Positions 928-14,713 of a DNA stretch of 33,602 nucleotides are shown in pieces. Numbering within the stretch: position 1 is the stretch's first letter; each line of letters begins with the position of its first letter. This DNA comes from Candidatus Omnitrophota bacterium (lineage in GTDB: Bacteria > Omnitrophota > Gorgyraeia > JABMRG01), in assembly GCA_028716165.1 (NCBI GenBank), contig JAQUQI010000015.1:1-33602 (forward strand), in the 5' to 3' direction. The translations under genes were made by a program, and so were the position numbers. The notes under the pieces are model-generated. The model made no database searches, was not told where the DNA came from, and was given only the letters and a program-made list of their open reading frames with translations.

Positions 928-956
928 TTTACACCAGGATTAACTTAATATATAGT
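928..956 (+). promoter_or_regulatory. Promoter of the barrel-gene leader
   Basis: TTTACA (928-933), 17-base spacer, TATAGT (951-956), each five of six to consensus. The predicted start near 963 coincides with the first base of the GTATCAA/TTGATAC hairpin, so the leader RNA would open with that stem. Confidence 0.5.
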
Positions 957-962
957 AAAAGA

Positions 963-1062
963 GTATCAAGCCGGTGGGGAAATTGATACGCGTGTTTTGT
1001 ATTTTTATGTTTACCAGACCGGCTTATTCTAAGCCGGTTTTGTTTTAACGCAGGAGGTGGGG
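963..1062 (+). promoter_or_regulatory. Structured leader with terminator/antiterminator choice (riboswitch-like)
   Basis: The roughly 100-base leader of the barrel gene holds a 7-bp hairpin (GTATCAA 963-969 with TTGATAC 983-989) whose loop contains GCCGGT. A terminator hairpin follows (ACCGGCTTA 1018-1026 with TAAGCCGGT 1030-1038, then T-rich to 1046), and then the Shine-Dalgarno (1052-1057). AAGCCGGT occurs twice, at 968-975 and 1031-1038, and both copies can pair with ACCGGCTT (1018-1025), so the 5' copy could disrupt the terminator. Only 12 bases separate the T-tract from the ATG-proximal region, too few for a promoter, so transcription of the gene must pass through this hairpin. It matches no riboswitch class I recognise. 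Confidence 0.5.
1018..1046 (+). terminator. Intrinsic terminator or attenuator hairpin
   Basis: A 9-bp stem ACCGGCTTA/TAAGCCGGT with a TTC loop is followed by TTTTGTTTT. It may end the tRNA-Leu transcript, attenuate the downstream barrel gene, or both. Confidence 0.7.
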
Positions 1063-13846: not shown

Positions 13847-14713
13847 ATGCAGACAGGTTCTATCACATTAGAAGCGCCAGCTAAAATAAACCTTTATCTG
13901 GATATTATTAGTAAGCGCAAAGATTTATACCACAATATAGCCACAATATTCTGCAAACTTAAACTATGCGATCATATCAGGGTTTCTGCAAAGGGTAAAG
14001 GTGTATCACTTGCCTGCAATCACCCGCAATTGCGCGACAAGAGGAGCAATCTTGCTTATAAAGCGGCTTTATTTATGAAAGATAATTACCGCTTAGAACA
14101 GGGCCTTGACATATCAATAAAGAAAAATATACCTATAGCCGCCGGATTAGGCGGCGGCAGTTCTGACGCCGCCGCGGTAATAAAGGCTGTGAATGAACTT
14201 TTTAATCTTCACCTGACGCGGCACGAGCTTATGCTATCGGCAAAGCATATCGGCGCGGATGTAGGTTTTTTTCTATCAGGGCATGATTACGCTATAGGCA
14301 GGGGCATAGGCGACAGGCTTACAGGTATAGAGGGGCCTGCCGCAAGGTTTTATGTGTTACTGCTTGTGCCCGACTTACATATATATACTAAATCTATATA
14401 TTCCGCTTTGAGTTTGCGCTTGACAAAACCCCGCGCCGATGTTAATATATCTTCCCGCATTTTAATGCGCAGCGATTGGCTGGATAGATTACCAGGATTC
14501 CTTTATAATAGATTAGAAGATGTAGTATTGCCTCTTTATCCTGTTACCGGAGCGGGCAGGCAGGCGCTTTGCCGTTATACAGATAATGTTTTATTATCCG
14601 GAAGCGGCCCAACTCTATTTGGGATTTTTAAAACGAAAGAACAGGCGCATAAAGCGGCGCGCGGCCTGGCCAAATACAAAAAATGGCAGATCTTTTTAAC
14701 ACAAAATGCCTGA
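13847..14713 (+). CDS. ispE: 4-diphosphocytidyl-2-C-methyl-D-erythritol kinase
   Basis: 288 residues, a GHMP kinase that phosphorylates CDP-methylerythritol in the MEP isoprenoid pathway. It shows PAKINLYL (11-18, catalytic Lys13), the ATP-binding loop PIAAGLGGGSSDAAA (96-110), the catalytic Asp in HIGADVGFF, and the late LLSGSGPTLFG motif. The ATG at 13847 has only a weak ribosome site. It sits in the ispE-spoVG-glmU-prs-ctc-pth order known from Bacillus, although purR/yabJ are missing and a tRNA and clpX are inserted. Confidence 0.93.
   Translation: MQTGSITLEAPAKINLYLDIISKRKDLYHNIATIFCKLKLCDHIRVSAKGKGVSLACNHPQLRDKRSNLAYKAALFMKDNYRLEQGLDISIKKNIPIAAGLGGGSSDAAAVIKAVNELFNLHLTRHELMLSAKHIGADVGFFLSGHDYAIGRGIGDRLTGIEGPAARFYVLLLVPDLHIYTKSIYSALSLRLTKPRADVNISSRILMRSDWLDRLPGFLYNRLEDVVLPLYPVTGAGRQALCRYTDNVLLSGSGPTLFGIFKTKEQAHKAARGLAKYKKWQIFLTQNA

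Follow-up and report, generated by a model that had tools for sequence, protein, structure and literature searches.

The 5' end of this contig raises the question of whether the short leader ahead of an outer-membrane beta-barrel protein gene acts as a regulatory switch and, if so, which of its parts matter. The window, meaning the whole stretch of 33,602 nucleotides analyzed here, corresponds to contig 15 in the 1.6-Mb MAG of a Candidatus Omnitrophota bacterium (labeled G000). On its forward strand, a predicted sigma-70-type promoter spans 928-956 (TTTACA at 928-933, a 17-nt spacer and TATAGT at 951-956; 10/12 match), followed by a 5'-terminal hairpin at 963-989 in which the 7-bp stem GTATCAA (963-969)/TTGATAC (983-989) encloses the 13-nt loop GCCGGTGGGGAAA. 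Inside this loop lies CGGTGG (972-977), a motif common to the other leaders of the class described below. A predicted intrinsic terminator occupies 1016-1046, where an 11-bp stem (1016-1040, AGACCGGCTTA-TTC-TAAGCCGGTTT, with TTC as its loop) runs into the tail TTTTGTTTT, ending at 1046. The Shine-Dalgarno sequence AGGAGG (1052-1057) precedes the ATG at 1063 of the barrel gene (1063-1878; 271 aa), the product of which matches PF13505 (OMP_b-brl) with an E of 2.2e-8, above the Pfam cut-off. Every element of the layout described in the initial annotation is therefore found in place; the transcription start is a consensus prediction in a phylum without mapped starts.

Inspection of the terminator reveals the feature that first suggested switching. 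The octamer AAGCCGGT occurs twice, at 968-975 and within the terminator 3' arm at 1031-1038, and both copies are complementary to ACCGGCTT at 1018-1025 in the terminator 5' arm, just as had been proposed. The first copy would thus provide the 5' strand of a competing, antiterminator pairing. On balance, we lean toward reading the window leader as a transcription attenuator and as one of a small group of leader RNAs that regulate in cis.

Scans of the first 4 kb returned 10 promoter-like matches versus 11.9 in shuffles and 3 terminator-like matches versus 3.7, with no excess in either case, so these labels alone are no proof and chance was gauged by other measures. By stem energy, the window terminator hairpin ranks 16th of 128, and it ranks 26th of 266 in a near-complete genome scan (1.54 Mb). 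An exact copy of the 3' arm of at least 8 nt within 60 nt upstream was found for one of the 128 terminators, where ~0.15 would be expected, and the pairing energy between the 5' strand and the terminator 5' arm is matched in 1.4% of dinucleotide shuffles. Terminators that end just before a Shine-Dalgarno sequence and an ORF number 10 of the 266 across the 1.54 Mb, and the window leader has the strongest competing pairing among those 10.

In folding predictions for the growing transcript, hairpin 1 forms first, gives way to the competing pairing while the 3' end lies at 1025-1035, and has been succeeded by the terminator by 1040; in the full-length leader the terminator state is favored by 7.5 kcal/mol. 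The leader thus places an intrinsic terminator between promoter and Shine-Dalgarno sequence, as judged from sequence, and holds an upstream strand able to pair with the terminator arm to the exclusion of the terminator; the same exclusivity is seen in a barrel leader from a second genus, G003. Alternation between terminator and antiterminator, as initially suggested, stands as a likely mechanism of attenuation.

Several other features of the locus were recorded. The octamer GGTGGGGA of the hairpin loop (973-980) appears again at 1056-1063, directly before the start codon and within the Shine-Dalgarno region; no such recurrence between loop and Shine-Dalgarno sequence was seen in other attenuator-type leaders. 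A leader peptide, read in the frame from GTG 974 to TAA 1046-1048, was rejected for want of a convincing Shine-Dalgarno sequence or a run of regulatory codons. The gene upstream of the barrel gene (331 to about 909) is apparently frameshifted near 770-790, through a real change or perhaps a sequencing error: its listed ORF stops at 843, and another frame continues as INKQRKQIEEINKINRARGQ..., which by eye matches the neighbor in G002, a genome of another genus.

Comparison with relatives was used to ask which parts of the leader persist. The nearest orthologue of the barrel gene, in G002, shares 54% identity and the same upstream gene, and its leader keeps TTCTTTACA and an A/T-rich -10. That leader has a single AT-rich hairpin with neither AAGCCGGT nor CGGTGG, and both sequences are likewise missing ahead of the G003:C143 orthologue (46%). 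The exact AAGCCGGT repeat is hence private to the window leader, which is the outcome that the initial annotation had named as refuting, and the duplicated motif is not the conserved part of the leader. The retained promoter also bears on another account, namely that 1016-1046 terminates the upstream gene and that the barrel promoter lies inside the leader (TTGATA 983/TATGTT 1006). That promoter-like site scores 9/12, but we saw no counterpart of it ahead of the G003 barrel gene, and an mRNA begun there would have its 5' end within the terminator. G002, moreover, retains the upstream promoter, and the upstream gene lies about 110 nt away; we regard this account as very improbable.

A paralogue of the barrel gene in G003 (C133, 30%) does share the layout, with TATAGTAAAA, ATACTCGGTGGGGA, a terminator and a Shine-Dalgarno sequence behind a promoter that is weak by consensus prediction. 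Between its 5' strand CTCGGTGGGG and CCTCGCCGAG, which belongs to the arm and loop of the terminator, a pairing of 10 bp is possible (-19.8 kcal/mol, shuffle p 0.007), as strong as that of the window leader and unlike it in sequence. This leader surfaced by way of a model built on the window leader rather than through a search for complementarity. The single-sequence covariance model of the window leader (R1) gave nothing better than E 0.08 outside itself in 117 genomes. A second model (R2), built from the G003 leader, was discarded since its only matches look terminator-driven. Primary-sequence likeness between the window and G003 barrel leaders, which share the 9-mer CGGTGGGGA, is modest and is reached by about 1.5% of random stretches. 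The competing pairing is missing from the G002 orthologue and reappears, in different sequence, in the paralogue and ahead of other genes.

In another possibility, the hairpins only protect the mRNA 5' end or set a constant, unregulated read-through and nothing is sensed. The ompA mRNA is stabilized by stable 5' hairpins, and the window leader resembles that arrangement in that the mRNA of an outer-membrane protein has a hairpin at its very 5' end. The AT-rich 5' hairpin kept in G002 without CGGTGG would fit such a role, as would the modest stability of the window leader when folded alone (z -1.49). In contrast to ompA-type hairpins, however, the window leader adds a terminator and a competing pairing and its loop sequence is conserved. 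Protection would leave unexplained the invariant CGGUGG before unrelated genes, the recurrent pairing of this motif with the second hairpin, and the rarity of Shine-Dalgarno-adjacent terminators, and we consider it unlikely.

To return to the attenuator reading, the element that does persist was found ahead of other genes. A genome-wide scan for terminators before Shine-Dalgarno sequences, in which the motif was not a criterion, gave two further leaders with GGTGGG (G000:C5 and G000:C9). The first precedes a secreted protein of 1343 aa whose N-terminus has a TPR-like stretch and whose C-terminus ends in GGQYRF; this protein is barrel-like by inspection and has no Pfam or NCBIfam match. The second carries the motif as AAGGUGGG and precedes an 80-aa MerR_1 protein, the gene for which lies between GspL/M-like genes and those for an ExeA-type ATPase and a secretin, and heads the secretin operon (operon genes named from their translations rather than by family search). 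A direct count of GGTGGG added the leader of smc (PF02463). Within G000, GGTGGG is followed by a terminator within 100 nt in 5 of 222 cases, one of which lies inside a gene and looks like chance, versus 1 of 264 for the reversed control GGGTGG. Occurrence in hairpin loops regardless of context shows no excess over control hexamers (14/222 vs 9-18 of 222-316).

Among 180 promoter-terminator units, CGGTGG is the top hexamer of all 4096, present in 6 versus 0.74 expected, with one of the six a likely chance site; the nominal p of 1.2e-4 does not by itself survive correction for 4096 hexamers. The hexamer is invariant across six aligned leaders, its orientation is identical in all leaders, and every attenuator-type leader has it near the -10, at a distance of about 8 to 24 nt. 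The 16-mer ATACTCGGTGGGGATA is common to the G003 barrel leader and the G000:C5 leader, which belong to different genes in two genera. From these comparisons a layout emerges in which a predicted promoter is closely followed by a G-rich strand, CGGUGG(G), and a 5'-proximal hairpin often presents this strand in its loop; in most members it lies upstream of an intrinsic terminator close before the gene, and in each such leader the strand or its neighboring bases can pair with the 5' arm or loop of the second hairpin. We propose to delimit the class by a CGGUGG(G) that follows the -10 by no more than about 25 nt and stands upstream of a pairable terminator or second hairpin, which describes two leaders each for barrel, large-barrel and smc genes and, with the AAGGUGGG variant, two for merR. 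The conserved part of these leaders, read from sequence comparison, is CGGUGG in a hairpin loop, common to the smc, MerR/secretin, large-barrel and mraZ leaders. A further occurrence, GGCCCTTCTCGGTGGGCTGAACC at L084 15409, is intergenic and possibly another member; no terminator was found near it.

Orthologous leaders in G002 provided the means to follow this motif between genera, in a comparison covering about 0.65 Mb of the G002 genome (G002 and G003 were searched in part). The orthologues of the 1343-aa barrel-like gene, smc and merR all keep the motif (3/3), within TATACTCGGTGG, TATATTCGGTGGG and AAGGTGGG, respectively. In the merR pair, six pairs of the 12-bp hairpin are altered, with both bases exchanged in a compensatory manner at two of these, 23 of 24 cells are still paired, and the 8-nt loop AAGGUGGG is identical. 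In the large-barrel pair, UAUACUCG is complementary to the terminator loop at 8 of 8 positions in both genomes, with one U-A changed to U-G, and the terminator stem carries two double, compensatory changes. Shuffle controls for covariation, with only two sequences per gene, gave 131/500 for merR and 128/500 for the large barrel and are not decisive; when the partners are slid out of register, about 95% pairing drops to 38-66%.

In a set of eight leaders, pairing between the 5' strand and the second hairpin exceeds that in shuffles (Fisher p 6.7e-6, or 1.1e-4 when the window leader is left out), values that are indicative since the two members of an orthologous pair lack independence and certain target stretches were picked by hand. 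Single-leader p values range from 0.004 to 0.45, and in G000 neither smc (p 0.45) nor merR (p 0.16) reaches significance for the competing pairing. The large-barrel pairing targets the terminator loop and need not exclude the stem, and the merR leader in G002 has no recognizable terminator. Throughout, the partner sequences of the G-rich strand differ from gene to gene. Our best reading is that most members of the class are attenuators whose terminator hairpin offers a pairing partner to the CGGUGG strand.

The mraZ leaders (the gene being named from a reading of its translation) present the motif in a different setting. In G002, a leader hairpin of ATTCCTT, the loop CTCGGTGGGCGAT and AAGGAAT has the geometry of the window hairpin, with a 7-bp stem, a 13-nt loop and CGGTGGG at loop positions 3-9, on an unrelated stem. 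A second G002 copy, with GGTGGGGA between CTTCTC and GAGAGG, adjoins the start codon and could cover the Shine-Dalgarno sequence. The G000 mraZ leader (L236; minus strand of G000:C18, ahead of the mraZ gene at 14081) holds four CCTTCTCGGTGGG-like copies, one of them diverged and one with the identical loop CTCGGTGGGCGAT, compared with the two copies in G002. Both leaders also contain AAAGTGG boxes at 10-bp steps upstream, which look like ordinary MraZ sites.

CGGTGG(G) might instead be a DNA operator situated just past the promoter, where a transcription factor such as a relative of MraZ, whose boxes contain GTGG as well, would bind, with the RNA structures incidental. The presence of 10-bp-spaced boxes together with CTCGGTGGG copies in the mraZ leaders would suit such an operator, and so would the closeness of the motif to the -10 in every attenuator-type case. 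Yet the CTCGGTGGG copies do not form 10-bp repeats and occur singly at other genes, the motif has one orientation in all leaders, and its distance to the -10 varies. Moreover, the flanking dyads differ between loci and stay paired in the merR pair, and in the large-barrel pair the complement in the terminator loop is co-conserved. That stems differ while loops stay the same argues for recognition of RNA over DNA, and we rate the operator as improbable, a little below mere 5' protection. The mraW RNA motif of Actinobacteria and MraZ DNA boxes likewise stand before the division gene cluster, unlike which the mraZ leaders here have no Rfam match and their CTCGGTGGG copies are neither 10-bp repeats nor restricted to this gene.

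We next consider how these leaders compare with known systems. None of those tested, mraZ leaders included, reaches an Rfam gathering cut-off, in agreement with the initial view that no known class has this layout; the best sub-threshold scores are for MicF (28 of 79 bits) and the L20 leader (21.6 of 58.7). The MicF score would suit a separate gene for a small RNA of about 80 nt, with a terminator that precedes the barrel gene by accident, and so would the order of promoter, hairpin, linker and U-tailed intrinsic terminator. Since terminators adjoin Shine-Dalgarno sequences at several different genes and the leader stays with its own gene in orthologues, this explanation appears distinctly improbable. 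Attenuating riboswitches and protein-controlled leaders share the promoter-proximal RNA, the terminator before the Shine-Dalgarno sequence and an upstream strand competing for its 5' arm, whereas the CGGUGG leaders have no known aptamer, a short hairpin with CGGUGG in its loop, and functionally unlike genes. The preQ1, SAM-II and fluoride pseudoknot riboswitches also have a 5' hairpin loop that can pair with downstream bases beside a terminator; unlike them, the CGGUGG leaders match nothing in Rfam.

T-box leaders (RF00230) offer a resemblance in sequence, as their GGGUGGN, which pairs with the tRNA acceptor end, is similar to CGGUGGN, and in both systems a G-rich GGUGG strand competes for the terminator 5' arm. 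A minimal tRNA sensor is nonetheless hardly credible: the CGGUGG leaders have no Stem I or specifier stem, no leader tested matches the T-box model, and the genes are of other types, unrelated to amino acids.

Searches farther afield returned little. A nucleotide search with the leader in 99 relatives recovered only itself. The pattern TATANTANAA-N{0,20}-GGTGGGGA matched in 6 genomes, not above control, with both in-family matches preceding barrel genes. Neither CGGTGGGRA-N{30,60}-TTTTNTTT in 246 genomes nor exact-pattern searches in 147 to 384 genomes of the class gave an excess outside the family, which means that the leader class is narrow or that elsewhere it takes a form too divergent to be caught by these patterns. 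Within the reach of these searches, we think it somewhat probable that the CGGUGG leaders are confined to one Omnitrophota family, and they probably constitute an undescribed regulatory RNA family; in the literature searched, no riboswitch paper names Omnitrophota.

In the mechanism that we propose for the window leader, hairpin 1 and the terminator would form by default, with hairpin 1 withholding the CGGUGG strand and transcription stopping after about 80 nt. Opening of hairpin 1, or engagement of the CGGUGG strand, would allow 968-975 to pair with 1018-1025 of the terminator 5' arm, preventing the terminator and letting RNA polymerase enter the barrel gene. Because CGGUGG is invariant while partners and stems vary, a common trans-acting reader is suggested, and we infer that a protein, ligand or RNA would supply this signal by recognizing CGGUGG. 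A tblastn search for CsrA and Hfq in 1.54 Mb of the genome gave no match and so lends no support to either as the reader. A metabolite-binding riboswitch is possible, with the conserved loop motif in hand and small-molecule sensing putative. Attenuation cannot be the sole output, given that merR in G002 has no recognizable terminator and the mraZ leaders have no demonstrated one.

To judge from the genes found, namely two kinds of barrel, a secretin operon, smc and mraZ, the leaders may be connected with the build-up of the envelope and with the cell cycle. We tentatively put forward, as a possibility we hold with less than even confidence, that the leaders form a new class of regulatory RNA through which one trans-acting signal acting via the CGGUGG loop co-ordinates the barrels, the secretin system, smc and the mraZ cluster, with attenuation or translation control depending on the gene. 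If true, the shared motif would join envelope, secretion, segregation and division to a common growth or envelope signal in a phylum that is almost wholly uncultured, and one short RNA hairpin would suffice for a direct search for the factor or ligand.

Two further leaders came to light. A nearly identical 88-nt hairpin-terminator leader (TATAGTTACAAAGTCCCGAGTTAAGAAGGAATAAATCCCGGACTCT...) stands directly before different genes in two genomes of one genus in family f17 (L194, G150:C72:125-212, minus strand; L197, G189:C22:1369-1456, plus strand), and is possibly a separate leader RNA or a mobile element. In the same genome as the window, an HMG-CoA reductase gene (PF00368) has a 15-bp terminator-like hairpin without CGGTGG 24 nt before its start codon (L080 15379-15436), which makes it another candidate attenuator by sequence.
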